A stretch of DNA of 64,000 nucleotides, from the NCBI GenBank assembly GCA_003134995.1, contig PLDC01000026.1:1-64000 (forward strand). The letters run 5' to 3'. The position numbers and the translations under genes are program-made. The notes under the pieces were generated by a model. The model was not told the origin of the DNA, ran no database searches, and worked only from the letters and a program-made list of their open reading frames with translations. The stretch is from Acidobacteriaceae bacterium. GTDB lineage: Bacteria; Acidobacteriota; Terriglobia; Terriglobales; Acidobacteriaceae. Within the stretch, counting starts at the first letter, position 1, and every line of letters starts with the position of its first letter. Positions 1,363 through 62,782 of the stretch are shown here, in pieces.

Positions 1363-1516
1363 AATTTGGCAATTTCGTAATTTGGTAATTTAACCTGGCT
1401 GAATGTTGAGAAGATCGCAAACGCCTTCGTTCGACCTCGTAATTCCTCGGGTTCCGCGGACATCTTAACCGCCCGTTCTCAGATTACAAATTACTAAATT
1501 ACAAAATTGCCAAATT
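1363..1516. repeat. Intergenic palindrome with 8 bp-period arms (AATTnnnn words)
   Basis: Arms 1363-1391 and 1488-1516 are inverted copies matching at 27 of 29 positions. Each arm is a chain of octamers beginning AATT (aatttggc, aatttcgt, aatttggt, aattt). About 96 bases of non-repeated sequence separate the arms. The element lies between the hypothetical gene and nuoA, so it may also hold the nuo promoter region. See the related elements at 5933, 8390, 9639, 16279, 52974 and 62688. Confidence 0.8.
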
Positions 1517-1604
1517 GTGACCGGTTCCCTTGACACTGCCGCTGATCAGCACCTAATCTAAAATGTTTAATCAAGCTTCGCGCGAATTATATATAGCCTC
1601 GCCT

Positions 1605-2081
1605 ATGCCCGACAATTATTTCGCCGGCTACCTGCCGATTCTGATCCATATTGTGCTGGTCGGCGGGCTCGCGACTGTCATTATCTCGCTTTCCTGGCTG
1701 ATCGGGGAGCGGAAACCGACTCGCGCCAAGATGGCCCCTTACGAATCGGGAATGGCGCCGGTGGGGGATGCGCGCGGGCGTTTCTCGGTGCAGTTCTACC
1801 TGGTGGCGATGCTCTTCATTTTGTTCGATGTTGAGGCAGTCTTTCTCTATCCCTGGGCGGTAATTCTGCGCGATTTGGGACACTTTGGGCTATGGGAGAT
1901 GCTCGTCTACATCGCCATTGTTCTGGTCGGCTTCTTTTATGTTTGGAAGAAGGGCGTTCTGGAGTGGGGTCCGGCGGCTGTGCGGTCGCAGGCAGCATCC
2001 GGTTTGCGAATCAATTTGCGTGATGTTCAATCTGGGGTGCAAGTTGATGTTCGATTCAATGACCAGCGAGGTGGAAGCTAG
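1605..2081 (+). CDS. nuoA: NADH-quinone oxidoreductase subunit A
   Basis: Small membrane subunit of complex I, at the interface between the peripheral and membrane arms. Three membrane segments are visible, with the conserved KMAPYESGM loop after the first and [12 protein letters not shown] in the second. The start at MPDNYF (1605) is preferred because the preceding 14 codons are not family-like, although an in-frame ATG exists at 1563. The protein has an unusual polar C-terminal tail of about 35 residues after the last helix (from about LEWGP), beyond the usual length near 120-125. It is first in a long operon; its stop overlaps the GTG start of nuoC by one base, and nuoB, usually next, is absent. 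Confidence 0.93.
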
Positions 2082-2578
2082 TGGCGTTGGCGCCAGCCAT
2101 TACCGATCTTGAGCAACTGAAGGGTCATCCGGCGTTGGCGCGGCTGCTGGCGTGGAATGCTTCGGCCGTTACGGGGGCGAAGTTCGATCGCGATGAGATG
2201 ACGATCTACATTGATCGCTCGAACCTTCGGGAGGCTTGTGCATTGCTGCGGGATGATGCGGAATGCACGTTCAACTATCTTTCCGACGTGACTTGCGTTG
2301 ACTGGTATCCAGCGGAGCCGCGGTTTGAAGTTGTTTATCATCTGCTCTCGATTTCTAAGAAAGAACGGGTACGTCTCAAAGTGCGGCTGGATAGTGCGAG
2401 CCCAGTTGTTGAATCACTGACTTCGTTGTGGCCCGGCGCTAATTATTTTGAGCGCGAAGTGTTTGACCTGTTCGGGATTCGGTTTACGGGGCATCCTTAT
2501 TTGAGGCGGCTTTTGATGCCGGAGGATTGGGAAGGTCATCCGCTGCGGAAGGATTATCCGGTGGAGGGCTACCGCTAG
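2081..2578 (+). CDS. nuoC: NADH-quinone oxidoreductase subunit C
   Basis: Peripheral-arm subunit (30 kDa type) that packs against NuoD. The signature region FEREVFDLFGIRFTGHP followed by LLMPEDWEGHPLRKDYP is near the C-terminus (about residues 122-161), as expected for a stand-alone NuoC rather than a NuoCD fusion. The start is GTG at 2081, overlapping the nuoA stop by one base, which suggests translational coupling. Length (165 aa) is normal. The gene follows nuoA directly without nuoB. Confidence 0.95.
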   Translation: MALAPAITDLEQLKGHPALARLLAWNASAVTGAKFDRDEMTIYIDRSNLREACALLRDDAECTFNYLSDVTCVDWYPAEPRFEVVYHLLSISKKERVRLKVRLDSASPVVESLTSLWPGANYFEREVFDLFGIRFTGHPYLRRLLMPEDWEGHPLRKDYPVEGYR

Positions 2579-2580
2579 TA

Positions 2581-3786
2581 ATGGCACATCTTGCACCCAC
2601 TCCCGTGCTCGAACCCGGTCAGGATCGAACGATGATCCTGAACATGGGGCCGCAGCATCCGTCGACGCACGGTGTGCTGCGCGTGCTGCTGGAGATTGAT
2701 GGCGAAACCATCGTGCGGATCATGCCGGACATTGGATTCCTGCATACCGGGATCGAAAAGACCTGCGAAGCGAAGTTTTATCAGCAAGTGGTGCCGCTGA
2801 CCGACCGAATCGACTATCTCTGCCCCATGACGAACAATCTTGCTTATGTGCTGGCGGTGGAAAAGCTGCTGGGGCTGGAGATTCCTCCAAAGGCGCAGTG
2901 GATGCGGGTGCTGATGAACGAGTTGACGCGCATCAACTCGCATCTGGTGTGGCTGGGCACGCACGCGATGGATATTGGCGCGCTGACGGTTTTTCTGTAT
3001 TGCTTCCGCGAGCGTGAAGAAATCTTGAATATGTTCGAGATGATTAGCGGACAGCGCATGATGACCTCGTACTTTCGCATAGGAGGGCTTGCGCTCGAAC
3101 CGCCTCTGGGATTCTTTGAGCGGGTTCGCGAATTCGCCGGGCGCTTTCCCGACAAGGTGGATGAGTACGAGAACCTGCTGACGGGAAATCCGATCTGGAT
3201 GATGCGGACTAAAGGCGTGGCGCAGCTCAGCGCGGAAGATGCGATTGCGTTGGGTGCGAGCGGGCCTACTCTGCGCGGGAGCGGCGTGGATATTGATTTG
3301 CGCCGCGATATGCCCTACTCGGGGTATGAGAATTTTAAGTTCAAGGTCCCTGTAGCGCAGGAGTGCGATGTGTTCGCGCGGTACATGTGCCGGGTGCGGG
3401 AACTGCGCGAATCGAACGAGATCGTGAAGCAGGCGCTCGATGGCATGCCGGAGGGACCTATCAAGGCCGATGCTCCCGGCATTGTGCTGCCCGACCGGGA
3501 GAAGATGAAGACGCAGATGGAAGCGCTCATCTATCACTTCAAGATTATTACCGAGGGCTTCGCAGTTCCGGCGGGTGAGGTTTACCAGGCGGTGGAATCT
3601 CCGCGCGGAGAGATGGGCTACTACATTGTGAGCGATGGCACAGCGAAACCGTATCGAGTGCATATGCGGGCGGCCTGCCTGGCTAATCTGCAGACGTTGC
3701 CCAAGATGTGCGAGGGACGGCTGATTGCGGACGTGGTGGCGGCGATTGGGAGCATTGACATTGTGCTGGGGGAGATCGATAGGTGA
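2581..3786 (+). CDS. nuoD: NADH-quinone oxidoreductase subunit D
   Basis: The 49 kDa-type subunit, which forms part of the quinone-binding site. It starts at MAHLAPTP, two bases after the nuoC stop; a longer in-frame ATG at 2527 lies inside nuoC and is unlikely. The N-terminal motif MGPQHPSTHGVLR (about residues 21-33) carries the conserved histidines lining the quinone pocket, and the C-terminus ends in the family-typical IGSIDIVLGEIDR. Length is 401 aa, as usual. Normally it contacts NuoB, which is not encoded here. Confidence 0.97.
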   Translation: MAHLAPTPVLEPGQDRTMILNMGPQHPSTHGVLRVLLEIDGETIVRIMPDIGFLHTGIEKTCEAKFYQQVVPLTDRIDYLCPMTNNLAYVLAVEKLLGLEIPPKAQWMRVLMNELTRINSHLVWLGTHAMDIGALTVFLYCFREREEILNMFEMISGQRMMTSYFRIGGLALEPPLGFFERVREFAGRFPDKVDEYENLLTGNPIWMMRTKGVAQLSAEDAIALGASGPTLRGSGVDIDLRRDMPYSGYENFKFKVPVAQECDVFARYMCRVRELRESNEIVKQALDGMPEGPIKADAPGIVLPDREKMKTQMEALIYHFKIITEGFAVPAGEVYQAVESPRGEMGYYIVSDGTAKPYRVHMRAACLANLQTLPKMCEGRLIADVVAAIGSIDIVLGEIDR

Positions 3787-3804
3787 TGTCGGGGGACTGA
3801 GCTG

Positions 3805-4047
3805 ATGTGTCCCGGAGCCGCACCGGTGTGGGAACAGGTCTTGATTAGTACGGCTGGGCCACCCATTATTGCCGTGCTTTGGCGTCTCCGTGCTAGGGGT
3901 TGGGCAAGAACGGTGCAGGGCGGAACGGTCAGTGAGAAAACGGAGAGACGCCAGAAAAAGGAGTTTTGGATTTTGCTGGTTGTGCTGTATGCCATAGTCA
4001 TCGGCGTGTTTATTTACAGCGCGTGGAAGTGTTCCCAGACGGGTTAG
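3805..4047 (+). CDS. Small single-pass membrane protein between nuoD and nuoE
   Basis: Unrecognised. The C-terminal half is a convincing short membrane protein: a charged stretch (SEKTERRQKKE) followed by one hydrophobic helix (FWILLVVLYAIVIGVFIYSAW) and a short tail with one Cys. The first 36 codons look non-coding in composition, so the true start may be the GTG at 3913, giving about 44 aa. It sits in the operon 18 bases after nuoD and 10 before nuoE. The positive-before-helix pattern suggests N-in orientation. It may be an accessory subunit or assembly peptide of complex I, which is inference from position only. Confidence 0.55.
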   Translation: MCPGAAPVWEQVLISTAGPPIIAVLWRLRARGWARTVQGGTVSEKTERRQKKEFWILLVVLYAIVIGVFIYSAWKCSQTG

Positions 4048-4057
4048 TTCGCACGAA

Positions 4058-4603
4058 ATGAAATTCTCCGAAGAATTCGAGGCGCGGTTTGCGGAGATGG
4101 TGCCGCATTATCCGACGAAGCGGTCGGCGCTGGTTCCTACCCTTCTTTATGCGCAGGATGAAGTTGGATTTTTGTCCGACGAGGTGATTGCGGAGCTTGC
4201 CGGGCGGCTTGATTTGACGGAGCTCGAAGTGCGCAACGTGATTAGCTATTACTCAATGCTCACGACGAAGCCGCGTGGCAAGTTTAATTTGCAAGTTTGT
4301 ACGAATATCAGCTGCCTGGTGCGGGGCGGTGAAGAAATTCTTCAGCACTGCGCGAAAAAGCTGGGCGTCGGGCACAAGGGAACGACGCCTGACGGTTTGT
4401 TCACTTTAGAAGAGGTCGAATGTATTGGGGCATGCAGTTGGGCTCCGGCGGCGCAGGTGAACTACGATTTTCACGAGAACTTGACTACAGAGAAGATGGA
4501 TCGGGTTTTGGACAAATGCTTAGCACAGGCCCAAGAACAATTGCAGCGCATCAAGTCTGTTGATTCCCTGGCCGACACATTGAGTCAAAGATCCGAGGGT
4601 TAG
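4058..4603 (+). CDS. nuoE: NADH-quinone oxidoreductase subunit E (2Fe-2S)
   Basis: The 24 kDa subunit of the NADH-oxidising module, with a thioredoxin-like fold carrying cluster N1a. The four ligands are visible: C81 and C86 (CTNISC) and C122 and C126 (CIGAC). The N-terminal helical part (YPTKRSALVPTLLYAQDEVGFLS) is typical of the family. The last 30 residues, Gln/Glu-rich and polar, go slightly beyond the usual end. It is 11 bases upstream of nuoF. Confidence 0.96.
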   Translation: MKFSEEFEARFAEMVPHYPTKRSALVPTLLYAQDEVGFLSDEVIAELAGRLDLTELEVRNVISYYSMLTTKPRGKFNLQVCTNISCLVRGGEEILQHCAKKLGVGHKGTTPDGLFTLEEVECIGACSWAPAAQVNYDFHENLTTEKMDRVLDKCLAQAQEQLQRIKSVDSLADTLSQRSEG

Positions 4604-4614
4604 ACGCCGTAAAT

Positions 4615-5937
4615 ATGGCATCTTTAGTTTCCCATCCCGATGAGGTAAAAGTCGTTACCCGCCGCTTTGGACTGGGCGCGACGAATATTGATCGCTACCT
4701 CGAACTGGACGGCTACAAGGCTGTGCAGAAGGCGCTTGGAATGGATGCGGACGCGATCATAAATGAGGTGAAGAACTCCGGGCTGCGCGGGCGCGGCGGG
4801 GCTGGGTTCTCGACCGGGATGAAGTGGTCGTTCGTGCCTAAGCAATCGGCCAAGCCGAAATATGTTTTGTGTAATGGCGATGAGAGCGAGCCTGGCACTT
4901 GCAAAGACCGGCTGATCTTCGAGCATGATCCGCACGCAGTAATCGAAGGAGTCATGATCGGCGGGCTGGCTGTGGGCGCGCGCAGCGGCTACATTTACAT
5001 CCGCGGCGAATATCGATACCTGTCGATCATCATGCAGAAGGCGATTCGCGACGCATATGCCAAGGGTTTTCTGGGCAAGAACATTTTCGGCAGCGGCCGC
5101 GATTTTGATATCTACTGGCACGGCGGCGCTGGAGCTTACGAGGTCGGCGAAGAGTCGGCGCTGATGGAATCGCTTGAGGGCAAGCGTGGTATTCCGCGGA
5201 TTCGGCCGCCATTTCCGGCTGTGGTTGGGCTTTGGGGCGGTCCGACGGTCATTAATAATGCGGAGACGCTGGCGAGTGTGCCGCACATTATGCTGGGCGG
5301 CGCGGAGTGGTATGCCAAGATTGGTCCTCCGAAGAATGGCGGCACGCGACTGTTCTGCCTTAGCGGGAATGTGGCGAAGCCCGGCGTATATGAACTGCCC
5401 ATGGGTTACAGCCTGAAGAAGATGATCTATGAAGTGGGCGGCGGGATTCCGAATGGGCGGTCGTTGAAGGCGGTTGTTCCGGGCGGATCTTCTACTCCTT
5501 GCCTGACTGCGGACGAGATCGACATCAACATGGATTTCGATTCGGTTGCGAAGGCTGGATCGATGCTGGGATCGGGTGGCGTAGTGGTGCTGGACGATCA
5601 GCAGTGTATCGTGAAGTTCGCTCTGCGGACGATGAAGTTTTATCAGCACGAGAGTTGCGGTTGGTGTATCCCTTGCCGCGAAGGCACGGACTGGCTGAAG
5701 AAAACTTTGATTCGTTTTCACTCGGGCGGCGGGGTGAAGAAAGACATCGACAACATGCAGTATCTCTCGGAGAACATGCTGGGGCGGACGTTTTGTCCGC
5801 TGGGAGATGCGGCGGCGATGCCGACGATTGCGTTCGTGAAGAAGTTCAGAAAAGAGTTTGAAGATCATTTGGACGGCCGGCCTTGCCCTTATGAAAAAGC
5901 GGGCGTGGCCGAAGAAATGGAAGCATTGAGTCATTGA
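4615..5937 (+). CDS. nuoF: NADH-quinone oxidoreductase subunit F (NADH/FMN, 4Fe-4S)
   Basis: The 51 kDa subunit that oxidises NADH and passes electrons from FMN to cluster N3. The nucleotide loop GLRGRGGAGFSTGMKW and the FMN-region GDESEPGTCKDR are in the first third. The 4Fe-4S ligands are C348, C351 and C354 (SCGWCIPCREG) and C394 (RTFCPLGD). Length (440 aa) is normal. A palindromic repeat overlaps the stop region and separates it from nuoG. Confidence 0.97.
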   Translation: MASLVSHPDEVKVVTRRFGLGATNIDRYLELDGYKAVQKALGMDADAIINEVKNSGLRGRGGAGFSTGMKWSFVPKQSAKPKYVLCNGDESEPGTCKDRLIFEHDPHAVIEGVMIGGLAVGARSGYIYIRGEYRYLSIIMQKAIRDAYAKGFLGKNIFGSGRDFDIYWHGGAGAYEVGEESALMESLEGKRGIPRIRPPFPAVVGLWGGPTVINNAETLASVPHIMLGGAEWYAKIGPPKNGGTRLFCLSGNVAKPGVYELPMGYSLKKMIYEVGGGIPNGRSLKAVVPGGSSTPCLTADEIDINMDFDSVAKAGSMLGSGGVVVLDDQQCIVKFALRTMKFYQHESCGWCIPCREGTDWLKKTLIRFHSGGGVKKDIDNMQYLSENMLGRTFCPLGDAAAMPTIAFVKKFRKEFEDHLDGRPCPYEKAGVAEEMEALSH

Positions 5938-6021
5938 GCGATTGGGTGATTTTGCGATTGAAAGTCAAAATCGTACGTCGATTTTCAATCGCTAAATCAC
6001 CCGATCACTCAATCGCTCAAT
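5933..6021. repeat. Intergenic palindrome with 8 bp-period arms (ATTGnnnn words), nuoF-nuoG
   Basis: Left arm about 5933-5966 and right arm 5980-6021 are inverted copies; over 34 aligned positions there are two mismatches. The right arm is longer by exactly 8 bases, one repeat word, which suggests word-wise expansion or loss. Words include attgagcg, attgggtg, attttgcg and attgaaag. It starts within the last codons of nuoF and ends 4 bases before the nuoG start. Confidence 0.8.
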
Positions 6022-6025
6022 ATTT

Positions 6026-8383
6026 ATGGCTGACGTAACACTTACAGTTGACGGCAAGAAGGTCACGGCTCCCGCGGGGACGCTGCTGATTGAGGCTTGC
6101 AAGACCGTGGGCATCGAAGTGCCTTCGTTTTGCTACTATCCGAATCTTTCTTTGCAGGGCGCTTGCCGCATGTGTCTGGTGAAGATCGAGAAAATGCCGA
6201 AACTGCAGACGGCGTGTACGACCGTGATCAGCGAAGGCATGATCGTTACCTCCGATAGCGAGGAGATCAAGCAGGCGCGGAAGTCGATGCTGGAGATGCT
6301 GCTGGGCAACCATCCTCTGGATTGCCCGGTGTGCGATGCCGGGGGCGAATGCGAACTGCAGGATATGACGTTCTCCTACGGCGCAGCCGAGTCGAAGTTC
6401 ATGGAGGCGAAGAATCATAAAGATGAGCAGCAGTGGTCGCCGGTGGTGTTTTTTGATCGGCCGCGCTGCATTCTCTGCTACCGCTGCGTGCGCGTCTGCG
6501 GCGAAGGCATGGATGTTTGGGCGCTGGGCGTGCAGAACCGCGGGGTGAGTTCGATTATCGCTCCTAATAAAGAAGATCACCTGGAGTGCGAAGAGTGCGG
6601 AATGTGCATCGACATCTGCCCGGTGGGCGCGCTCACTTCGGGCGCTTATCGCTATAAGACGCGTCCGTGGGAGATGAAGCATGTGGGCACGATCTGCACG
6701 CACTGCGGTGACGGCTGCAAGACTACGCTGGGCGTGCGCCGCGCCGACACCGGTATGGAGATCGTGCGCGGCGACAATCGCGACAAGAGCGGTACGAACG
6801 GGGACTTTCTTTGCATCAAGGGCCGTTACGCCTTCGATTTTGCGAATCATGAAGAACGGCTTACGCAGCCGCTGATTCGCAAAGAAGGCAAGCTGACTCC
6901 AGCAACGTGGGAAGAAGCGTTTCAGCTGATCGGAAAGAAGTTTGCGGAAGTGCGCGACCGCGATGGCGGGTCGGCGATTGGCGTGATCGGCTCGACTCGC
7001 ACGACAAACGAAGAATCCTATCTGCTTTCGAAATTTGCCCGCATGGTATTGAAGACGAACAATGTCGACCACCATCGCACCGCGGACTTCCCTGCTTTCG
7101 CGGCGGCGCTTCGCGGTAAGGCAGATGCCACAGCCAGCATGGCGGACGTATTCACTGCGCCTGCGATTCTTTTGATCGGAAATGATCCCACTGAGCAGCA
7201 CCCGCTGCTGGCGTGGCAGATTCGCAACAACGTTCGACTGCACCGCTCGCGGCTCTATGTGATCAATTCGCAGGCAATCAAATTGCGACGGCAGGCAACG
7301 AACTTCATGCAGATCCCCGCTGGAGCAGAAGGTAAGGTTGCGGCGTTTCTCGCCGGCGACGACGCTGCCGCGGATGCCATTATCAATTCATCGTCAACGA
7401 AAGATCAGTGGAACTCGCTGCGCGACACGTTGCGCGGCGAACAGAATCTAGTCATCGCGTTCGGTTCGGAAATCTTAGGCAGCGATCTTTCGAGCCTGGT
7501 GACGTTCGGTTCTGCAATCGCCGGAGCTAAGTTTGTTTGCCTCGCCGACTATGCCAACTCGCGCGGAGCAGCTGACATGGGCTTGTATCCCGATTTGCTT
7601 CCTGGATACCACCCGATCAGTGGCAGCAGCGAGTTTCATACAGAATGGGGCGAGATCCCGCAGGCGGCCGGACTCGATTTATCCGGCATGGTTGAGGCGG
7701 CAAGCACGAACAAGTTGAAGGCTCTGTACGTTGTTGGCTCAAATCCGATTGGGCGGTTGAAGATCGATTCATTCGCGTTCTCGAACAGCTTTGTCGTGGT
7801 GCAGGACATGTTCCTCACCGAGACCGCCGTGGTAGCGGACGTGGCGTTGCCCGCCGCGAATGCATACGAAAAGTCTGGTACGTTCACGAACACTTGCGGC
7901 GACCTGCAGTTAGTAAAGAAGGCCGGCGAGGTCACGGGTACGAAGGCGGACTTCGAGATGATCGTGCGCATCGCGGACGCAATGGGCTTTGACGTCCGCA
8001 AACTCGTGCCCATCGGCGGCGGCACTCATGCTGACATGGGGCAGTCGCGCGGGGCACAATCGGGCGAGGCCGACCGTCATGCGGTGTGGCTTGAGGCGCA
8101 TGGGTTGGAGCCTAAGCTGAGCCCGTTCGATCCCATGGCGATTCTGGATGAAATTCAGCGGCTGGTGCCGGGCTATGACGTTTCCCGCATGAATCTGCTG
8201 GCGGGCAACAGCCAGCATACCTCGCTCGCCAAGGCTGGGCCCGGAGTCGCGCACAGGCCTGAATCTATTTCTCCGGCAAACGATACTCTTTTTAGTTCTG
8301 GAACACTGGGACATTATTCGCGCGCGCTGAAGTCGGTCATGGAGAGTCACGAAGTGAAGCCGGCTGAAGTTGCGGCAGACTGA
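6026..8383 (+). CDS. nuoG: NADH-quinone oxidoreductase subunit G
   Basis: The 75 kDa subunit and electron wire of the peripheral arm. N-terminal ferredoxin domain: C36, C47, C50 and C64 for a 2Fe-2S cluster, then H96, C100, C103 and C109 (HPLDCPVCDAGGEC) for the His-ligated 4Fe-4S cluster. Next is a two-cluster-type segment with C148/C151/C154/C158 and C188/C191/C194/C198. A further set, C224, C227, C231 and C263, marks the start of the molybdopterin-oxidoreductase-like domain and would bind an N7-type cluster. The rest (about 280-785) is the MopB-like domain. The start lies just after the palindrome, and the weak leader may lower translation. Confidence 0.96.
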   Translation: MADVTLTVDGKKVTAPAGTLLIEACKTVGIEVPSFCYYPNLSLQGACRMCLVKIEKMPKLQTACTTVISEGMIVTSDSEEIKQARKSMLEMLLGNHPLDCPVCDAGGECELQDMTFSYGAAESKFMEAKNHKDEQQWSPVVFFDRPRCILCYRCVRVCGEGMDVWALGVQNRGVSSIIAPNKEDHLECEECGMCIDICPVGALTSGAYRYKTRPWEMKHVGTICTHCGDGCKTTLGVRRADTGMEIVRGDNRDKSGTNGDFLCIKGRYAFDFANHEERLTQPLIRKEGKLTPATWEEAFQLIGKKFAEVRDRDGGSAIGVIGSTRTTNEESYLLSKFARMVLKTNNVDHHRTADFPAFAAALRGKADATASMADVFTAPAILLIGNDPTEQHPLLAWQIRNNVRLHRSRLYVINSQAIKLRRQATNFMQIPAGAEGKVAAFLAGDDAAADAIINSSSTKDQWNSLRDTLRGEQNLVIAFGSEILGSDLSSLVTFGSAIAGAKFVCLADYANSRGAADMGLYPDLLPGYHPISGSSEFHTEWGEIPQAAGLDLSGMVEAASTNKLKALYVVGSNPIGRLKIDSFAFSNSFVVVQDMFLTETAVVADVALPAANAYEKSGTFTNTCGDLQLVKKAGEVTGTKADFEMIVRIADAMGFDVRKLVPIGGGTHADMGQSRGAQSGEADRHAVWLEAHGLEPKLSPFDPMAILDEIQRLVPGYDVSRMNLLAGNSQHTSLAKAGPGVAHRPESISPANDTLFSSGTLGHYSRALKSVMESHEVKPAEVAAD

Positions 8384-8389
8384 GAAGAG

Positions 8390-8516
8390 AATTTTGTAAT
8401 TGGGTAATTTGCAAATCCCACACCGCGTACTGAATGTTTAGGATTGCATCTCAGGAGAAAATCGTTTTTCAATTACGAAATTACTAAATTACTAAATTTC
8501 CCAATTACTCAATTAA
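8390..8516. repeat. Intergenic palindrome with 8 bp-period arms (AATTnnnn words), nuoG-nuoH
   Basis: The left arm (8390-8419) contains aattttgt, aattgggt and aatttgca. The right arm (about 8470-8516) contains aattacga, aattacta, aattacta, aatttccc and aattactc. The arms are imperfect inverted copies. The word family resembles the element upstream of nuoA. The right arm ends six bases before the nuoH start, so an upstream in-frame start at 8444 would translate the repeat and is judged false. Confidence 0.8.
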
Positions 8517-8521
8517 GCCAA

Positions 8522-9631: not shown

Positions 9632-9638
9632 GGGAAGG

Positions 9639-9763
9639 CAGTAGCCAGCTGCCAGCCCCCTGTTGCCAGTAAGAGCGTGCGCGGCGTGAGGTCGAATCGT
9701 GTTGAAAATGACTGTTGAACCAACTGTGACTGGGAACTGGCAACCGGCAACTGGCAACTGATT
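9639..9763. repeat. Intergenic palindrome with 7 bp-period arms (AACTGGC-type words), nuoH-nuoJ
   Basis: The right arm reads as heptamers aactggc, aaccggc, aactggc, aactga. The left arm (9639-9670) is its imperfect inverted copy (24 of 32 positions). About 58 bases separate the arms. It occupies the whole nuoH-nuoJ gap, exactly the place of nuoI in standard operons. Confidence 0.75.
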
Positions 9764-9769
9764 TTGCAT

Positions 9770-15591: not shown

Positions 15592-15632
15592 TCTCTCTCT
15601 CTCTTCGGATGTTCCGCTTTCTTAGACGCGCT

Positions 15633-16268
15633 TCATTCCTGACCGGGAACCAAAGGTACAAAGCGCACAAGCTCACGAAGAGAAGTCACGGCCTGGCCGT
15701 TGACCATGCGGATGAACTGCAGCTGTTGAGAGTCGGAAGATCCGATCGGAATGATCATTCGTCCTCCGTCGCGGAGTTGAGCGGGCAGAGCCGGAGGCAA
15801 ATGGAGAGCGGCGGCAGAAACGAGGATGGCGTCAAACGGAGCGCTGTCAGGAAGTCCGAGCGCGCCATCGCCGATGATGACATGGACATTGCGATAGCCA
15901 AGCGTAGAGAGAAGATTGCGGGCGCTCTCGGCGAGAGACACGTGCCGTTCGATGGAAAACACTTCTGCAGCAAGTTCCGCGAGCAGCGCGGCAGCGTAGC
16001 CGGAACCGGTTCCGACCTCGAGAACCTTGTCGTTCGGCGTGACCTGGAGAGATTCGAGCATGAGCGCAACAATATAAGGTTGAGAAATGGTTTGGCTGTC
16101 ACCGATGGGAAGCGGATGATCTTCGTAGGCCTGCGCACGGTTTGCTTCAGAGACAAATTCGTGCCGCGGTACGCGAAGCATGGCGTCAAGAACGCGCGTA
16201 TCGGAGATGCCGCGATCCCGGAGTTGAGAATCGACCATCAGTCGCCGAGCAGCGGTCGGATCAGGCAT
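15633..16268 (-). CDS. pcm: Protein-L-isoaspartate O-methyltransferase
   Basis: Repairs isoaspartyl damage in proteins with S-adenosylmethionine. The SAM-binding motif VLEVGTGSGYAAALLAEL is near residue 78, and the family hallmarks VPRHEFV and QTISQPYIVALM precede it. 211 aa from MPDPTAARRLM. An in-frame ATG at 16355 would translate the upstream palindrome and is rejected as the start. It is downstream of tamB on the same strand. Confidence 0.93.
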   Translation of the reverse strand: MPDPTAARRLMVDSQLRDRGISDTRVLDAMLRVPRHEFVSEANRAQAYEDHPLPIGDSQTISQPYIVALMLESLQVTPNDKVLEVGTGSGYAAALLAELAAEVFSIERHVSLAESARNLLSTLGYRNVHVIIGDGALGLPDSAPFDAILVSAAALHLPPALPAQLRDGGRMIIPIGSSDSQQLQFIRMVNGQAVTSLRELVRFVPLVPGQE

Positions 16269-16278
16269 AAGCGGTGGT

Positions 16279-16359
16279 TCAGTGGTCGGTGATCGATGGT
16301 CGATCCTCAGCAACCGGCGTTTTCTTACTGACCACTGATCACTGACCACCGACAACTGA
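16279..16359. repeat. Intergenic palindrome with 7 bp-period arms (CTGACCA-type words)
   Basis: The right arm (about 16327-16359) is a run of heptamers ctgacca, ctgatca, ctgacca, ccgacaa. The left arm (16279-16304) is an imperfect inverted copy (19 of 26). It fills the tamB-pcm gap and was probably the source of a false N-terminal extension of pcm. Confidence 0.7.
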
Positions 16360-31270: not shown

Positions 31271-31375
31271 TTGTCGTCCCGAAGCGTAGCGAGGGACCGC
31301 TGGTGTTTGCCCGCAGCGGCACGAAGGATGGCGCCGACAAGAACCAATATCCCTCGCTTCGCGTCGGGATGACAA
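31271..31375. repeat. Intergenic palindrome, GGGATGACAA class
   Basis: Arms 31271-31296 and 31350-31375 are inverted copies matching at 23 of 26 positions. An inner hairpin pairs 31297-31302 (CCGCTG) with 31314-31319. The right end GGGATGACAA recurs at the ends of the repeats at 44823 and 45629. It lies between the hydrolase gene and the kinase gene, which converge, so it may act as a terminator for both. Confidence 0.75.
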
Positions 31376-36894: not shown

Positions 36895-37629
36895 ACTGAT
36901 TCCGGCTCACCGAGCAGTATATCTGTAAGATAATTTATGCGTTCATCAGCATAACTAATGTCGCATCGTGCCGTCCCTGACGGGACTCTATTCAGCTTAG
37001 GAATTCGTTCCCGGCACTGCCGTGCCGGGCTTTCACATGCCGCCCTTCGGGCTGGATTTTGGTCCGGATAGAATATTTTGGCATGCCTGCCGTTAAAATC
37101 TCTGGAATCAATTAGTTATGCGCTTTGGATACCACTTTAATCCGGCTAAAATATTGATTCTAAATATTTTACCCGTAAAATGCTTGATCTAAAGGACTTA
37201 GCTTGGGTGCTCTTGGACTAAGTCCTTTGTAATCAGTTGGCCACCCCGGGGGTACAACGGGCGTTAAATCTAAAATATTGGGAGTAGAGGGCTTGCAGGA
37301 AAAATCTTGATGCCGGGTCAGTTATCCGATTGCTATTTTTATGTCAAAGAGCTAATGCTTTAACAAATATTAGAAACCTTCTTGCGGGTCGGAGTCAAGG
37401 GAATTCTGCGGAAGCCGACGCGCGAGCTTTCATTCAAAAAGATGTGGCCATCGCCTTGACACTAAAAAATGGCCGGATTATAGTTCTGGCTCCTCCCCGA
37501 GTGAGAGTAGCTCTCACGTCTTCAACTGATTATTGAGTGTCGGCCTAGCATCCACTCCGCCTGGGCTCGGTCGAAACCTCACTGTCATCGCTTAGAAATC
37601 ACGTGTCGAAATCTGTAGGAGCGCTCGAA
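36895..37629. other. Long, AT-richer intergenic region with hairpins
   Basis: No convincing gene. From 36965 it holds a repeat-type sequence with GTGCCGTCCCTGACGGGAC and CCCGGCACTGCCGTGCCGGG hairpins and GCCCTTCGGGC. Then an AT-rich part has a perfect stem 37148-37155/37163-37170 (AAAATATT) and a perfect 11 bp stem 37191-37201/37218-37228 (AAAGGACTTAG). A GTGAGAG/CTCTCAC stem is at 37501-37517. A 68-codon frame at 37330-37536 has no family resemblance. Composition differs from neighbours, which may indicate acquired or regulatory sequence upstream of the first repeat-protein gene. Confidence 0.5.
37191..37228. promoter_or_regulatory. 11 bp perfect hairpin in leader region
   Basis: AAAGGACTTAG (37191-37201) pairs with CTAAGTCCTTT (37218-37228) around a 16-base loop. 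It lies about 400 bases before the repeat-protein gene. A stem this long is unlikely in random sequence. Role unknown: terminator without T-tract, attenuator or operator. Confidence 0.45.
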
Positions 37630-48039: not shown

Positions 48040-48123
48040 CTGAATGTGGTGATGTTGCCACCGCTTGATTGGCGGATTTAGCTTCCGGTTTCTAGTTTGC
48101 AGTTTCTTGCCAGGTAAGCCACG

Positions 48124-51514: not shown

Positions 51515-51577
51515 AATGCAAACTGAGCCGCGCCTCTACAAGCGGCGCTTCAATAATCCTGCAAGCGAGTCACGCCG

Positions 51578-52951: not shown

Positions 52952-52973
52952 CTTCGAGAAAGTCACAAGCTCC

Positions 52974-53061
52974 TAACCGCGAAGGTCGCAAAGAAAGTCT
53001 GCGAAGTTCGCCAGAATTTCTTTGCGTTCTTCGCGGCTCTTCTTTGCGACCTTTGCGGTTA
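52974..53061. repeat. Intergenic palindrome, CGCAAAG/CGAAGGT word arms
   Basis: Arms 52974-52995 and 53040-53061 are inverted copies matching at 21 of 22 positions. The inside holds further related words (GCGAAGTTCGCC, TTGCGTTCTTCGCGG). It fills the lysC-dapB gap; the right end is 15 bases before the dapB start. Confidence 0.8.
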
Positions 53062-53076
53062 AAATGTTTTGACTTC

Positions 53077-53763: not shown

Positions 53764-53783
53764 AATGTACCTGCGTACTCGCC

Positions 53784-54233: not shown

Positions 54234-54271
54234 ACGTTTCCCTTCGCCCCCATTCGCGCTATCTTATAAAC

Positions 54272-55402: not shown

Positions 55403-55417
55403 AAAATTACTGACTCA

Positions 55418-56248: not shown

Positions 56249-56343
56249 TTGGCCCCACTCGATTGCACTACTGAAATTCAACCCAACAGCAGATTCCTCT
56301 CTTGTCTCGCGGCGCGGCTTCGCCTGCGTTCGGCATGAAAACC

Positions 56344-56994: not shown

Positions 56995-57015
56995 TCTTTT
57001 TTTATCACAGAGAGG

Positions 57016-57717: not shown

Positions 57718-57814
57718 CTTAACTCAGTGCGCGGGAGAAAGCTATCGGGCGCGGGCCGTAGACGCATCCTTCCGTGCGGTGCGACACACCGTCTGTGCTA
57801 GCATCAAATATCTG

Positions 57815-59479
57815 ATGCCAACTGGAAAATTGCAGATTATCCCCCTCGGGGGCCTCGGCGAGTTCGGTATGAACTGCATGGCCGTACGCTGGGGTGACGA
57901 CATTATTGTGATCGATGCGGGCCTCATGTTCCCTGAGGCTGAATTGCTCGGCGTCGATATCGTGGTCCCGGATATTTCTTATCTCATTGAGAACCGGCAG
58001 CGGGTGCGGGGCATACTCCTCACCCATGGCCACGAAGATCACATCGGCGCGCTGCCCTGGATTCTTTCCGAACTCAACGTGCCGGTGTGGGGCACGGAGT
58101 TCACGCTTGCGTACGTCGAAGATAAACTCGACGAGCACGGACTGCTTGAAGACGCCAACCTGAACGAGATGCAGGCCGGCGAGCGCTTCAAGCTCGGCCC
58201 GTTCACGATTCATCCAATTCGAGTCACGCACAGCCTCGTCGATTGCGTTGCGCTCGCCATTCACACCCCGCTCGGCGTGATCATTCATACTGGCGATTTC
58301 AAAGTCGATCCCACTCCGACTGACAATCATTTGTTCGATCTGCACGCCTTCGCGGAATACGGCAAGCAGGGCGTGCTGGCGCTGTTTCAGGATTCCACCA
58401 ACGTCGAGCGTAAAGGTTACACACCCAGCGAGCGCGCCGTTCGGCGCAAGTTTGACGAAGTGTTCGCGCACACGCAGCGACGGCTTTTCATTTCATGCTT
58501 CTCTTCATCGATTCACCGCATCCGGCTGGCCGTTGAATTGGCTCATCAGCACGGACGCAAGGTGGCCTTCATCGGCCGTTCCATGAACAACTCCGCTGAG
58601 ATCGCCGAGGATCTGGGCTACCTGGAAATTCCCGAGGGACTCGTCATCAATCCCGGCGAGATGAAGAATTTTCCGCCGGAAAAAGTTTGCGTGATGATCA
58701 GCGGAACTCAGGGCGAGCCCATGTCCGCGCTCTCGCGCGCCGCGGTCGACAACCACAAGCACGCGAAGATCGAGAAGGGTGACACCGTCGTGCTCTCGTC
58801 GCGCATCATCCCCGGCAACGAGAAGACGATTTACCGCATGATCGATCACCTCTTCCGCCGCGAGGCGTATGTAATTTACGAAGACGGCACGACGCCTCCA
58901 ATTCATGTCAGCGGACACGGCAGCCAGGAAGAACTGAAGCTTATTATCAACCTAGTGAGGCCGAAGTATTTTATTCCCATTCACGGCGAATACCGGCAAC
59001 TGAAGCTGCACGCCGAAATGGCCGGAGCCATGCATAGCTCGGTAGGAAAAGTAATTCTGATCGAGAGTGGAGACGTTCTCGAGTTCGACGAACACAACGC
59101 CCGCAAGGCCGGACGCGTCAATGTGGGCCGCGTCTGCATCGATTCCGGCTCGCGCACCGACGTGGTTGAGGATTTAATCATCAAAGACCGGCGGCATTTG
59201 AGCGAAGACGGCATCGTGCTACCCATTATCGCTATCAACAAGCTTACCGGCCGAGTCGAAACCGCGCCAGAGATTGTCACGCGCGGCTTCAATCCCGGAG
59301 ACGACGGCCTGATGGATGGTGCCAAGCGCATCGTGGAAGATACGTTGGCGCACTCCAGCGAAGAAGAAAAAGCCGACTACGGCGTGATCAAAGAAAAAAT
59401 TCGCGCGGACTTGAAGCGTTACATTTCCAAGCAAACCCAGAAACGGCCGCTGATCATGCCGGTCATACTGGAGATCTGA
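57815..59479 (+). CDS. rnj: Ribonuclease J
   Basis: Metallo-beta-lactamase/beta-CASP RNase of mRNA and rRNA processing. The metal site is H71-G-H73-E-D75-H76 (THGHEDHIG); later HTGDFKVDPTP, SSRIIPGNE and HGEYRQL are visible, the last from the beta-CASP/second metal region. 554 aa from MPTGKLQIIPLGG. The earlier in-frame ATG at 57653 overlaps the divergent gene. The last 72 bases are duplicated downstream at 60043-60115. Confidence 0.95.
   Translation: MPTGKLQIIPLGGLGEFGMNCMAVRWGDDIIVIDAGLMFPEAELLGVDIVVPDISYLIENRQRVRGILLTHGHEDHIGALPWILSELNVPVWGTEFTLAYVEDKLDEHGLLEDANLNEMQAGERFKLGPFTIHPIRVTHSLVDCVALAIHTPLGVIIHTGDFKVDPTPTDNHLFDLHAFAEYGKQGVLALFQDSTNVERKGYTPSERAVRRKFDEVFAHTQRRLFISCFSSSIHRIRLAVELAHQHGRKVAFIGRSMNNSAEIAEDLGYLEIPEGLVINPGEMKNFPPEKVCVMISGTQGEPMSALSRAAVDNHKHAKIEKGDTVVLSSRIIPGNEKTIYRMIDHLFRREAYVIYEDGTTPPIHVSGHGSQEELKLIINLVRPKYFIPIHGEYRQLKLHAEMAGAMHSSVGKVILIESGDVLEFDEHNARKAGRVNVGRVCIDSGSRTDVVEDLIIKDRRHLSEDGIVLPIIAINKLTGRVETAPEIVTRGFNPGDDGLMDGAKRIVEDTLAHSSEEEKADYGVIKEKIRADLKRYISKQTQKRPLIMPVILEI
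59406..59477 (+). repeat. Direct repeat copy 1 (3' end of rnj)
   Basis: The last coding stretch of the RNase J gene. It is repeated at 60043-60115 with few substitutions and a one-base indel; see that entry. Confidence 0.85.
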
Positions 59480-59575
59480 CCTCGCGGCACATTGCTCGTG
59501 GGAACAGCTCCCGGGACGTAGGATGTTGTTCTCGGCCCATGGCAGCAGTGTTAGTATCTGCGAAGGAGAAGCCCA

Positions 59576-59767
59576 ATGACCGGAATTCAGTTCATCACCG
59601 ACGAAGCGGGCCAGAAAAAAGCGGTCGTCATCGACCTCAAGAAGCACAAGGCTCTTTGGGAAGACCTCGAGGATGTGCTGGTTTCCCGTTCCCGGCGGCA
59701 CGAAAAACGCATCCCGCTCGCCAGGGTAAAGGCGGATCTCGTCAAGAGCGGAAAACTTCGTGGCTAG
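59576..59767 (+). CDS. Putative antitoxin of a RelBE/ParDE-type pair
   Basis: A 63 aa protein (TGIQFITDEAGQKKAVVIDLKKHKALWEDL). Overlaps the toxin start by eight bases, the typical antitoxin-toxin order. A beta-strand then helices fits a Phd/RelB-like DNA-binding antitoxin, though no clear family match could be made. AAGGAGAAG lies 5 bases before the ATG. Confidence 0.7.
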   Translation: MTGIQFITDEAGQKKAVVIDLKKHKALWEDLEDVLVSRSRRHEKRIPLARVKADLVKSGKLRG

Positions 59768-60023
59768 CTATGATGTCGCGCTAACGGCGAGCGCGGCAAA
59801 AGAACTCAAGAAACTACCTGCTCAATTGATCGCGCGCATCGTTCCGCGCCTGGAAAGTCTCGCAGCCAATCCACGGCCACCAGGCTGCAAGAAAATGCAA
59901 GGCGGAGACCGTGAGTGGCGCATTCGGATAGGCGACTACCGCGCTGTCTACACCGTCGATGACACGAAATTGCTGGTGGAGGTGACGCGCATCCGTCACC
60001 GGAGCGGAGTGTACGAACGCTGA
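59760..60023 (+). CDS. RelE/ParE-family toxin
   Basis: 87 aa with the RelE/ParE pattern: ALTASAAKELKKLP, a helix pair, KKMQGGDREWRIRIGDYRAVYTVDD and a C-terminal IRHRSGVYER. Typical mRNA interferase or gyrase-inhibitor fold; target unknown. Sits right after the antitoxin and before the duplicated rnj end. Confidence 0.85.
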   Translation: MASYDVALTASAAKELKKLPAQLIARIVPRLESLAANPRPPGCKKMQGGDREWRIRIGDYRAVYTVDDTKLLVEVTRIRHRSGVYER

Positions 60024-60042
60024 TGGCAAGCACAGGCGCGGA

Positions 60043-60115
60043 CGGACTTTAAGCCGTTATATTTCTAAGCAGACCCAGAAACGGCCGCTGATCATGCCGG
60101 TGATACTGGAGATCT
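60043..60115 (+). repeat. Direct repeat copy 2 (duplicated 3' end of rnj)
   Basis: Aligns with 59406-59477 over its whole length, the last 35 bases differing at only one position. It is out of frame with any gene and has a stop in the former reading frame. The toxin-antitoxin pair lies exactly between the copies, so the pair probably inserted at the 3' end of rnj with duplication, or a displaced old end remains. Confidence 0.82.
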
Positions 60116-60198
60116 AGGTCGGAGCGTAATGGGCTGTATTGGAAATTCATCTCCGCCAAATGCTATACTTGCATTCGCTTTAATGGTGAGGTGACTTC

Positions 60199-60954
60199 AT
60201 GAAACCCTACGCCTTGCTAGCCGTATCCCTCCTTCTCGCCTGCACCTTGGCGGCTCAAGAGTCCGACGAGCCATCCCGCGGACCTGACGGAGGCACCCGG
60301 TTTCGCGTCCACGGCATACAGATCCTTCCCGCCACTGCAAGGCCGTTCTCAGGCCGCGACAACATAGAGTGGACGCGCAACATCGAGGACGGGAGCGTGG
60401 TCACGACACATCTCTTTGCCACCCTTGCGAGGGACAGCCAGGGCCGAATCTACCGCGAACACGTCACATTCGTCCCCGCCAACAGCAATCAGCCATCCAG
60501 ACGAATCGACATGGTGCTGCTGGACCCAGTCACTCACACGGGCACAACCTGCATTATTGCAACCAGGCAGTGCACCATCACCAACTATTACACTCCCACT
60601 TCGTTTACTCCGCCTCCTGTTGGCCCCTTCGACAAGGGAACCCGGTCCCTGGCCCGCGAGAGCCTGGGAACCGACTCTATCGACGGTTTCAATGTCGTTG
60701 GCACGCGTGAGACGATTTCCATTAACCTCGGTGTGGTCGGAAATAGCCAGCCGCTCGTTACCACAAGAGAGTTCTGGTATTCTCCCGACCTTCAAGTAAA
60801 CTTGTCCGTCACCCGCAAGGACCCGAGGGAAGGCACGCAGGTGATTCACATAGTCGATCTTTCGCGCTCTGAACCGGATCCGGCAATGTTCCAGGTTCCC
60901 GCTGGCTTTGTCGTTCAAGATCTCCGGCGCGGAAACACGAAGACCGAACAGTGA
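60199..60954 (+). CDS. Secreted hypothetical protein
   Basis: Signal peptide of about 20 residues (YALLAVSLLLACTLAAQ; the Cys could make it a lipoprotein, but the lipobox is weak). The rest is a 230-residue beta-rich domain with one Cys pair (TCIIATRQCTI). Resembles hypothetical proteins common in Acidobacteriota, function unknown (family knowledge, not verified here). GGTGAGGTG precedes the ATG. 251 aa. Confidence 0.7.
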   Translation: MKPYALLAVSLLLACTLAAQESDEPSRGPDGGTRFRVHGIQILPATARPFSGRDNIEWTRNIEDGSVVTTHLFATLARDSQGRIYREHVTFVPANSNQPSRRIDMVLLDPVTHTGTTCIIATRQCTITNYYTPTSFTPPPVGPFDKGTRSLARESLGTDSIDGFNVVGTRETISINLGVVGNSQPLVTTREFWYSPDLQVNLSVTRKDPREGTQVIHIVDLSRSEPDPAMFQVPAGFVVQDLRRGNTKTEQ

Positions 60955-60981
60955 TCGGTAATAAGGAGAGACAACCCGGCT

Positions 60982-61410
60982 CTAGCTAAGCGGATTCTTC
61001 CACCGCAACCCCGGGAACCGCGCGAAGTCCCGGTCCGCTGAATAAAGCACGCCACCATATTCCATTGTCAGTGCCGCGATCTCGGCGTCGCTCACTCGAG
61101 GACCCGCCGCCCGCCCTTCGATCACCATCCGCCGAAACAACGGCCAATAAGCGACACCCGGCGTCAGAACCTGTACGTTGGGATGCGCCAGCCAGAGGTC
61201 GACGATCCGTGCCGCTTGCTCCAGATCAAAGCGTTCGGCAGGCAACTTGGGATTGGTCATAACCCGCAGGAAGGCAGAAACCACCTGCCAGGGCAGCCCG
61301 ACCACCTCAATGCTCGACAGCGTGTTTTCGAGCCATGCACGTGCACGCGCGTGATGAGACGAATCTCTGTTATACGAGTAGATGAGAAGGTTCGCGTCGA
61401 GTACGATCAC
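60982..61410 (-). CDS. vapC: VapC-family PIN-domain toxin
   Basis: PIN-domain RNase. The acidic residues are in IVLDANLLIYSYN (Asp near residue 4), a Glu/Asp in the middle, VSDAEIAALTMEYGG and the C-terminal YSADRDFARFPGLRW. 142 aa. Start overlaps the antitoxin stop region by four bases. Confidence 0.88.
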   Translation of the reverse strand: MIVLDANLLIYSYNRDSSHHARARAWLENTLSSIEVVGLPWQVVSAFLRVMTNPKLPAERFDLEQAARIVDLWLAHPNVQVLTPGVAYWPLFRRMVIEGRAAGPRVSDAEIAALTMEYGGVLYSADRDFARFPGLRWKNPLS

Positions 61411-61637
61411 CGGTAGTCCGGGCCTTCGAGGTACTCGAGTAATTCCTCCACTTTGTCGAAGTCAGGAAGGCCTAGATTGATGGGTGTCACCTTGAATGGC
61501 TTCCTCGGAGGCTGTTTCGTCGTCAACCCCAGGCGCAGGTACCGGTTCACCACCTGCTTGAACGGCTCCCCGGTCTTCCGGACTTCCTTGTTCAACAGGG
61601 CCGCGACGTCCTCGTCGAGAGTAAGAGTGGTTCGCAC
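61407..61637 (-). CDS. vapB: VapB-type antitoxin
   Basis: 76 aa; N-terminal RTTLTLDEDVAALLNKEVRKTGEPFKQVVNRYLRLGL is a ribbon-helix-helix pattern, followed by a flexible C-terminal part that would wrap the toxin. Upstream of vapC in the same operon with a four-base overlap. Confidence 0.85.
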   Translation of the reverse strand: MRTTLTLDEDVAALLNKEVRKTGEPFKQVVNRYLRLGLTTKQPPRKPFKVTPINLGLPDFDKVEELLEYLEGPDYR

Positions 61638-61711
61638 ATCATGATGCTAATTCACAAGACATCATGATGTCAAGACTACTCTCCGTGCGGCCAATGGTAC
61701 ATTGGAAGCTT

Positions 61712-62695
61712 ATGCCCATGGTCGGCCTCGCAGATATCCAAGAAGCACAATCCCGGCTGCGCGATATCGCCACCCGCACTCGCCTGATCGAATTCAGTCA
61801 TCCAGAATCCAACTTTCGCCGCCTTTTCCTGAAGCCCGAAAACCAGCAGCCCATCGGCGCCTTCAAACTTCGCGGAGCCTATAACAAGATCGCATCCCTC
61901 TCTGAAAAAGATCGTAACCGTGGGGTCATTACCTACTCCAGCGGCAACCACGCACAGGGCGTGGCCTATGCTGCGCGGGCTCTAGGCGTGAAGGCTGTCA
62001 TTGTCATGCCGCAGAACGCTCCGGCGATTAAGCGCGAGGCCACGGCGGCACTGGGCGCTGAAATTGTTTTCGTCGGCCCGGGCAGCGCCGAGCGCCAGAG
62101 CAAGGCTGAGGAACTGGCGGCGCAGCACGGATATGTAATCGTGCCTCCATACAATGATGAACAGATCATCGCCGGCCAGGGCACGATCGGATTAGAAATT
62201 CTCGAAGACTTGCCGGAGGTCGAAACGGCTTTCGCTCCGGTCGGCGGCGGAGGCATGATCAGCGGCGTTGCCACTGCCATCAAGCTGAGCAAGCCTTCGG
62301 TCAAAATAATCGGAGTGGAACCGGAACTCGCCGGCGACGCGCGGGCCAGTTTCCGCGCAGGAAAGATCGTTCAATTCCCTGCCGATGAAGTTGTGCACAC
62401 GATTGCCGATGGGCTGCGCACGCAAAGCATCGGCCCCATCAACTTCGAGCACATTCGCCGCTACGTCGACGACATCGTCACCGTGAGTGAAGATGAAATC
62501 CGCGAAGCAGTTCGACTGCTGGCGGCGAATCCGAACACTGTGGCCGAGCCCAGCGGAGCCGTGTCTGTAGCGGGATTTCTGTTCCATCGCGATCAGCTTC
62601 CGGAAACGAAGATCAATGTCGCCATCATCAGCGGCGGCAACATCGACCCGAAGATGCTGGAAGAATTTCGGCGAAGAACGCGGCAGAGCAATTAG
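61712..62695 (+). CDS. Threonine/serine dehydratase (PLP, fold type II)
   Basis: Deaminates threonine to 2-oxobutyrate (or serine). The PLP Lys lies in IGAFKLRGAYNK, the pyridoxal phosphate loop in SSGNHAQGVAYA, and the glycine-rich loop VGGGGMISGVATAI. 327 aa; no C-terminal ACT regulatory domain, so it is like the catabolic form. ATG 61712 chosen; leading Met positions at 61664 are upstream of it. Confidence 0.9.
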   Translation: MPMVGLADIQEAQSRLRDIATRTRLIEFSHPESNFRRLFLKPENQQPIGAFKLRGAYNKIASLSEKDRNRGVITYSSGNHAQGVAYAARALGVKAVIVMPQNAPAIKREATAALGAEIVFVGPGSAERQSKAEELAAQHGYVIVPPYNDEQIIAGQGTIGLEILEDLPEVETAFAPVGGGGMISGVATAIKLSKPSVKIIGVEPELAGDARASFRAGKIVQFPADEVVHTIADGLRTQSIGPINFEHIRRYVDDIVTVSEDEIREAVRLLAANPNTVAEPSGAVSVAGFLFHRDQLPETKINVAIISGGNIDPKMLEEFRRRTRQSN

Positions 62696-62782
62696 CAAGC
62701 AATTAGCGGCTTCGCAATCCTCCTCCTCGACTAAGCGTAAGAACTCAGAACGGCTGATTGCTAATCGCCAATTGCTAATTGC
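62688..62782. repeat. Intergenic palindrome, GCAATTA-type words
   Basis: Left arm (62688-62719) and right arm (62756-62782) are partially inverted copies, built of gcaatta/gcaaattagc-type words. The left arm overlaps the stop codon of the dehydratase gene. Confidence 0.65.

Follow-up and report, generated by a model that had tools for sequence, protein, structure and literature searches.

In this study we examined a 64,000-nucleotide stretch of an Acidobacteriaceae bacterium (assembly GCA_003134995.1, contig PLDC01000026.1, positions 1 to 64,000 of the forward strand; hereafter the window), in which an earlier inspection of the letters alone, the sequence-only reading, had picked out at least seven intergenic palindromes built of words of 7 to 8 bp, of which the seven it listed are treated here. 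These palindromes are very probably forms, lacking an open reading frame (ORF), of elements that elsewhere carry a gene for an S23-family four-helix-bundle protein, and the explanation as a whole, a dispersed two-part S23 word-array element comparable to the REPIN-RAYT system, appears likely. The complete form would consist of an array of 7- or 8-bp words, the S23 gene, and a second, inverted copy of the array. Every protein lineage would have a private word on one oriented core (reading inwards from the left end, approximately YYRGTNN), and word and protein would pass on as a unit, by inheritance or exchange. S23 genes were found to be flanked by such arrays, the word was linked to the protein, ORF-bearing and ORF-less forms occupied the same spacers, and palindromes and gene co-occurred across the sampled genomes. 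S23 ORFs are otherwise known from intervening sequences (IVS) in ribosomal RNA (rRNA), as in Leptospira and Coxiella.

The ORF between the arms encodes an S23-family four-helix-bundle protein (PF05635 / TIGR02436), with the TIGR02436 model scoring above its cut-off in all four proteins tested (one of them from the nuoF/nuoG spacer) and PDB 2gsc from Xanthomonas being the nearest solved structure for one ORF protein (E 1e-22). PF05635 was above cut-off in 39 of 41 genus genomes and occurred in 58 of 119 genomes sampled across the phylum. The window's own genome has three such genes, none in the window, and all three were flanked by inverted 7-mer arrays with a different word each. Purifying selection on the ORF was evident in the heptamer lineages tested, median ratios of non-synonymous to synonymous substitution (dN/dS) per group being 0.065-0.124 (37 usable of 84 pairs). 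The Avd model of diversity-generating retroelements matched two of the four S23 proteins tested weakly and under its cut-off (2.2e-07 and 8e-05); no diversity-generating cassette turned up, none having been searched for, and the own genome gave two reverse transcriptase matches.

At each locus the upstream flank was compared with the reverse-complemented downstream flank and arms were counted at a score of ≥16. The genus sample, comprising 72 high-scoring loci among the matches listed and eight nuo-spacer loci (80 together, two dropped for short flanks), had arms at 47 of 78 S23 loci versus 71 of 1540 mismatched arm pairs, and at 37 of 67 when the eight nuo loci and the three own loci that prompted the idea were left out. 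A wide sample, the best 80 of at least 585 confirmed genome-contig stretches, with several Acidobacteria shared with the genus sample, had arms at 53 of 75 S23 loci and at 32 of the 47 outside Acidobacteria (mismatched arms 56/1486), the latter count being the more independent one because the two samples overlap in Acidobacteria. The non-acidobacterial groups were Bacteroidota, Planctomycetota, Chloroflexi, Cyanobacteria, several Proteobacteria, Firmicutes, Cloacimonadota, one Methanophagales archaeon and others, and most of the cyanobacterial S23 genes inspected were flanked by 7-bp word arrays. When the best locus in each of about 30 genomes was taken across the phylum, periodic arms were present at 27 of 29 S23 loci (mismatched arms 86/844; two loci, L299 and L301, have near-identical arms), whereas PIN-domain genes sampled in the same way were flanked in 0 of 29 cases, one having been dropped for a short flank. 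Ten seed genomes reached through named records, all already in the wide sample, had arms at 24 of 30 S23 loci (mismatched arms 28/577). The mismatched-pair controls lie above zero because some elements share words; at the same score of ≥16, random positions gave arms in 7 of 4000 cases and other small ORFs in 2 of 138, both adjoining word arrays. Arm period was 7 or 14 in 78 of 96 pairs (36/44 genus, 42/52 wide) and 8 in eight genus and seven wide pairs.

With one query protein, an S23 gene match was obtained in 0 of 50,697 phage records and in 37 of 72,556 plasmid records, and six of the eight plasmid loci inspected had inverted arms at a score of ≥15. In Pseudanabaena and Anabaena plasmids (L290 and L292; L-numbers are labels of fetched loci or stretches) the S23 gene and its flanking word arrays lie between cas6 and cas4 of CRISPR loci. 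A small ORF that is membrane-protein-like by eye lies between matching AGCTNTC word arms at L057:12048-12318, and is perhaps a different cargo.

The words were found to follow the protein lineage. The 75 heptamer consensuses aligned by rotation to the oriented core, with G in all 75 and R before this G in 70, and the core held 4.76 bits of information versus 3.33-3.47 in eight letter shuffles and 3.64-4.03 in eight random-strand sets. The orientation was visible in the arms themselves, RG exceeding CY in the left arm of 52 of 59 wide elements (3 fewer) and in 20 of 29 ORF-less arms of the own genome (5 fewer). Where protein identity reached 60% or more, 59 of 88 genus pairs had words within one mismatch, versus 9 of 780 below that identity; a tree of the four-helix-bundle proteins showed clade-specific words, and S23 paralogs of the same genome shared a word in only 1 of 35 pairs.

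The most informative natural comparison was the spacer between dprA and topA, where 26 of the 30 species inspected had an element scorable for both traits. Protein subtype, defined by the first residues (assigned by hand in L277 and L278, some ORFs at this site being truncated), agreed in 26 of 26 with a word class that was set after seeing the data as the majority of the last two letters of the RGCYNNN words, the outermost left word being omitted where possible (L255 was mixed, 3 to 2). The combinations were R with ..TT in 12 species, Q with ..TC in 8, E with ..CT in 4 and T or K with ..CG in 2. The topA tree required 13 changes of subtype and 13 of word class, and four sister pairs with SH-aLRT ≥95 (L260/L262, L265/L266, L270/L272 and L271/L273) differed in both traits. 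This spacer also held a bare palindrome in L257 and a broken ORF in L258, and either no element or a scar in L280 and L283.

From this linkage we lean, by a small measure, towards the S23 protein specifically recognising its word. The element could also move as one block whose protein does not read the word, which we consider somewhat unlikely. Whole-allele replacement by recombination at dprA-topA would likewise yield agreement in every species, and words diverge fast under about 60% protein identity, many of the high-identity pairs being orthologues of one site. Linkage without recognition accounts less well for an association that recurs in many phyla with different words on a common core, for same-genome paralogs that nearly never share a word, and for purifying selection on the ORF in the lineages tested.

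The spacers of the nuo operon provided ORF-bearing and ORF-less forms at one position. Seventeen nuo loci of the same genus were fetched, with coverage of the spacers varying by locus. At nuoF/nuoG, the window, L018, L039 and L042 had a bare word palindrome, and L037, L040, L043, L048 and L051 had two word arms with an intervening ORF of about 115 amino acids (apparently damaged in L037); L044 had almost nothing there, and L041, L045 and L046 had other sequence. On the nuoG tree the window, with its palindrome, was sister to L048, with the ORF form (SH-aLRT 95), and L018 (palindrome) was sister to L051 (ORF form; support 100). The same spacer in L036, L038 and L047 held a GC-rich unrelated palindrome (CGCCGGCGTCTCGCCGGC), and one spacer has therefore been reused by unrelated palindromes. 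At nuoH/nuoJ, 12 loci including the window were readable; by eye, nine had clear palindromes of the same design and three were one-sided, mixed or decayed, and the word varied by species (AGTTCTC, AGTACTC, AGTTGCC, AGTGGTC or AGGGGTC). Across the nuo spacers of sister species the arms remained largely complementary while the word changed, in keeping with the sequence-only reading. Of 11 loci readable at nuoCD/nuoE, four were empty, with overlapping genes, three had arms and ORF, and four had other sequence.

Several elements within the nuo operon directly adjoin start and stop codons, as would suit a function at the level of RNA, in which intercistronic hairpins serve in processing or stability, are RNase III substrates like the rRNA intervening sequences, and are kept paired by selection; the S23-bearing IVS of Coxiella is described as excised by RNase III (PMC4990558). 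This explanation is compatible with the S23 word element, but it leaves the private words unexplained, and the four empty nuoCD/nuoE sites indicate that the element is dispensable there, which counts against it; as the account of the palindromes we hold it to be unlikely.

The own genome was sampled as the window and 20 stretches of 20 kb, 464 kb in total. Inverted repeats with a score of ≥18 numbered 28, versus none in one dinucleotide-shuffled copy and two against the unreversed complement. At a score of ≥15 there were 48, of which 27 had periodic arms (period 7 in 16, 8 in nine and 9 in two), compared with seven repeats, none of them periodic, in one shuffled copy. Arms of S23 genes were matched by 19 of the 27 periodic palindromes (score ≥12 and above 10 letter shuffles), mostly arms from S23 genes of other genomes and not those of the three resident ones. 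Most of the own-genome palindromes would, on the S23 word-element explanation, be relics of elements that no longer have a gene of their own.

The ORF-less forms also went with the gene between genomes. Genomes with PF05635 contained 24 periodic palindromes in 400,000 bp (20 stretches, eight genomes, drawn from contigs known to carry PF05635; one stretch, L418, holds such genes) and genomes without it only one, a 6-bp case, in 278,627 bp (15 stretches, eight genomes), a comparison that is neither phylogenetically independent nor curated because the gene-free lineages are few and some palindromes are doubtful. For the window's own family the counts were eight in 120 kb with PF05635 and 0 in about 159 kb without it. 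At the prfA site an S23 match was present in nine of 30 species, with GTCGTTG or GTCTTCG words where arms were visible, and several other species had bare AGTTCTC palindromes and others unrelated palindromes.

These counts bear on a purely mutational origin, in which slippage on 7-8-bp words and template switching at hairpins would build such palindromes anywhere between genes and the S23 gene would be a frequent passenger. Perfect and near-perfect arrays do exist (L111 has about 22-25 copies of AGTTCTC per arm), words at one spacer differ between species on both arms together, and PMC4692102 cites a hypothesis that connects heptamers with slippage of the polymerase. Copying by slippage and hairpin, the mechanism first put forward for the window, may keep arms alike; on its own it leaves unexplained the flanking of S23 genes (27/29 phylum loci, against 0/29 for PIN genes), the complete agreement of subtype and word, the shared oriented core and the near-absence from sampled stretches of gene-free genomes (one palindrome in 279 kb), and as a sufficient cause we judge it very unlikely. 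That the palindromes are REP/REPIN elements moved by RAYT tyrosine transposases was rejected as scarcely credible: seven of the eight Y1_Tnp matches in the own genome are indeed flanked by inverted palindromes, but these are non-periodic single sequences (0/8 periodic), whereas the word arrays sit at S23 genes. With the eight RAYT-like matches (L353-L360), the own genome has another system of genes accompanied by palindromes.

Within the window, left arms were aligned with reverse-complemented right arms and scored against 1000 dinucleotide shuffles of both arms at each site. Left arms are given on the plus strand and right arms, as inverse words, on the minus strand. Element 1 (1363..1391 and 1488..1516; score 25, fraction of shuffles reaching it 0) has 8-bp AATTTGGY words of a family that also forms S23-flanking arms, and lies upstream of nuoA, between it and a minus-strand ORF. 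Elements 2 to 4 occupy the nuoF/nuoG, nuoG/nuoH and nuoH/nuoJ spacers as annotated with NCBIfam. Element 2 (5925..5966 and 5980..6021; score 30, fraction 0) has 8-bp words of GATTGAGT type, with the nuoF stop codon inside its left arm and its right arm ending 4 bp before the nuoG start codon. Element 3 has 8-bp words AATTGGGT in its left arm (8390..8410) and a right-arm array (8471..8515; AATTACTA) that exceeds the left arm in length, 8390-8410 aligning with 8494-8514 at score 15 (fraction 0.002). Element 4 (9639..9675 and 9724..9760; score 17, fraction 0) has 7-bp words, AGTTGCC on the left and ACTGGCA on the right, and the same spacer in sister species held palindromes of the same design with other words. 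Element 5 (16279..16301 and 16330..16352; score 15, fraction 0.003) has 7-bp AGTGGTC words; its left arm overlaps the 3' end of an ORF at 15609-16292, its right arm is part of an array at 16327-16359, and the genome scan favoured a different, overlapping pairing at 16225-16309. Element 6 (52974..53011 and 53024..53061; score 24, fraction 0) lies downstream of an aspartate kinase gene and has words of about 9 bp (CGCAAAGGT), closer to 9-bp than to 7-8-bp words; it failed the periodicity cut, and its words were not among the S23-flanking arms displayed for genus and wide loci. Element 7 is marginal, with AGCAATT words at 62687..62707, where the stop of an ORF at 61664-62695 lies inside the arm, and GCTAATT words at 62753..62783; 62687-62698 aligned with 62772-62783 at score 12 (fraction 0.014), weakly and under the genome-scan cut. 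Arms thus overlap stop codons and reach as far as start codons.

The seven palindromes proved real, six of them clearly above local dinucleotide shuffles (≤0.003 of 1000) and the one at 62688 marginally so, and the single design first described, with a conserved 7-8-bp period and words that vary from site to site, was borne out; Tandem Repeats Finder reported 7-8-bp arrays at 1361, 5925, 8471, 9729, 16327 and 62753. The words were not unrelated, as had been claimed: those at 1363, 5933 and 8390 form one 8-bp family (AATTGAGT / GATTGAGT type), those at 9639, 16279, 52974 and 62688 are other words, and heptamers share the oriented core. Nor do the arms at 5933 differ by exactly one word, as they pair ungapped over 42 nt with six scattered mismatches. 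Rfam gave no match at the elements, and there was no rRNA match in the window. Elsewhere in the window, an Acido-Lenti-1 RNA (RF01687) matched above its gathering score at 37010-37053, and a palindrome without words at 31271-31375 belongs to a separate single-sequence family (TTGTCATCCCGAGCGAAGCGAGGGAT...) that recurs in L053, L057, L061, L063 and L070.

In the S23 word element the arms can pair, so that single-stranded DNA or RNA would fold into a stem whose loop contains the ORF or what little remains of it. We know of no catalytic site in this type of small helical-bundle protein, and we therefore propose that the S23 protein binds the word array, probably in this hairpin form of single-stranded DNA or RNA, and may help to maintain or spread the element, as RAYT is proposed to do for REPINs, with host enzymes doing any copying. 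Uniform words could plausibly be maintained by slippage inside each arm together with copying from one arm to the other; hairpin-mediated copying of words is offered tentatively. A version in which independent slippage goes with coupled arm length found no support, the arm lengths being uncoupled.

A number of observations weigh against the S23 word-element explanation or restrict it. Scores were under 16 at 31 of 78 genus and 15 of 47 non-acidobacterial loci, where some arrays were short or one-sided and several were absent, and in ORF-bearing elements the array lengths of the two arms were at most loosely related (Spearman -0.14 for 52 genus elements, 0.35 for 57 wide ones). The core was less uniform in the 24 non-acidobacterial words alone (A in 22, G at the next position in 18), and the left-arm bias was weaker in the genus (RG more frequent in 32 of 54, less in 15). 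The topA tree is partly unresolved, with 10 of 27 inner branches open, and the 8-bp lineage of the window's nuo elements yielded 0 of 10 usable dN/dS pairs. The word at nuoH/nuoJ switched between species without any ORF there; of 36 pairs tested for loop homology, two that cross word classes gave p 0.0066 and 0.027, which is only suggestive of word change in place. No empty-site pair had an unambiguous target duplication, nuoCD/nuoE being compatible with one of 3 bp that falls across stop and start codons. The genome set lacking PF05635 drew on few lineages, and some of the 24 counted where the gene is present were doubtful by eye. In the own genome the majority of palindromes bear words absent from its three present S23 genes, and eight of the 27 periodic ones matched no S23-flanking arm found, six of these belonging to a CACAGAG / CACGGAG / CGCAGAG / CGCCGAG group of 8-9-bp words.

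That group, which also includes CGCAAAG and has the same inverted design, occurs at L053:9563, L054:11288, L054:16596, L055:12623, L057:15650, L063:12026 and window 52974. Among the arms displayed for the genus, wide, phylum and named-record loci, no S23 gene had CACAGAG / CGCAAAG words.

Degenerate 7-bp tandem words between genes are familiar as the STRR heptamers of cyanobacteria, which to our knowledge have been described as single arrays without a partner gene. The own-genome palindromes have such words between genes, with period 7 in 16 of 27; they are not strictly heptameric, because nine have 8-bp and two 9-bp words. The arrays of Xanthomonas (GGGAATC) and Nostoc (GGGGATT) likewise consist of 7-bp words in tandem between genes, some of them in inverted pairs; 70 of 186 GGGAATC arrays in Xcc and 75 of 183 in Xac form convergent inverted pairs (PMC4692102). 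In the P6b stem of the Nostoc tRNA-Leu intron, complementary 7-nt repeats switch repeatedly between Class I (TDNGATT) and Class II (NNTGAGT) while the fold is kept (PMC4476775), a likeness to the present elements, although that stem lies inside a group I intron. Inverted heptamer pairs and a stem of complementary heptamers were therefore already in print (PMC4692102; PMC4476775), and the suggestion that known classes do not occur as inverted pairs does not stand. The main text of PMC4692102 has no occurrence of 'S23' or 'four helix', and among the matches listed in open-licence literature we recognised no report linking S23 or four-helix genes with short tandem or heptanucleotide repeats.

As in the rRNA IVS, the paired ends of the present elements enclose a loop that carries an S23-family ORF. 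For the Coxiella IVS, two to three tandem heptamers (GACAGAT), variable between strains, are described just before the S23 ORF, which occupies the loop of a stem that RNase III cuts and is said to be under reductive evolution (PMC4990558), an arrangement consistent with the present family. IVS are located within 23S rRNA genes, whereas the loci inspected closely (nuo, dprA-topA and prfA; others were only scored for arms) are in spacers of protein genes; both of their ends are word arrays, each lineage uses a private word, and ORF-less copies are numerous. Their ORF, unlike that described for Coxiella (PMC4990558), is under purifying selection in the lineages tested. The likeness to REPIN-RAYT as described in PMC3116915 takes in dispersed ORF-less inverted doublets able to form hairpins, which here match S23-flanking arms in 19 of 27 cases; a partner protein gene that has the repeat on its flanks, with repeat class and protein lineage congruent here as there; and distinctive single protein copies per genome. 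The two systems differ in that the partner here is a four-helix bundle and not a Y1 (HUH) tyrosine transposase, and in that the repeat is an array of 7-8-bp words and not one short palindrome with a 16-mer REP core (PMC3116915).

The finding bears on two open questions, the role of the abundant S23 / four-helix-bundle proteins and the origin of degenerate 7-bp words and word-built hairpins. The natural allele set at dprA-topA, with four protein subtypes and four word classes, makes protein-DNA specificity directly testable, and the hairpins of about 100 bp, in which many short words on both arms differ together between species, provide a small natural system for slippage and hairpin-templated copying. 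A wider class can be envisaged, at a likelihood that we place a little short of evenly balanced, in which S23 proteins would be sequence-specific partners of private 7-bp word arrays and very widespread in prokaryotes, and in which ORF-less hairpins would make up much of the heptamer excess and many of the unexplained intergenic palindromes in bacteria, and perhaps in some archaea, including the cyanobacterial STRRs and the Xanthomonas and Nostoc heptamers.

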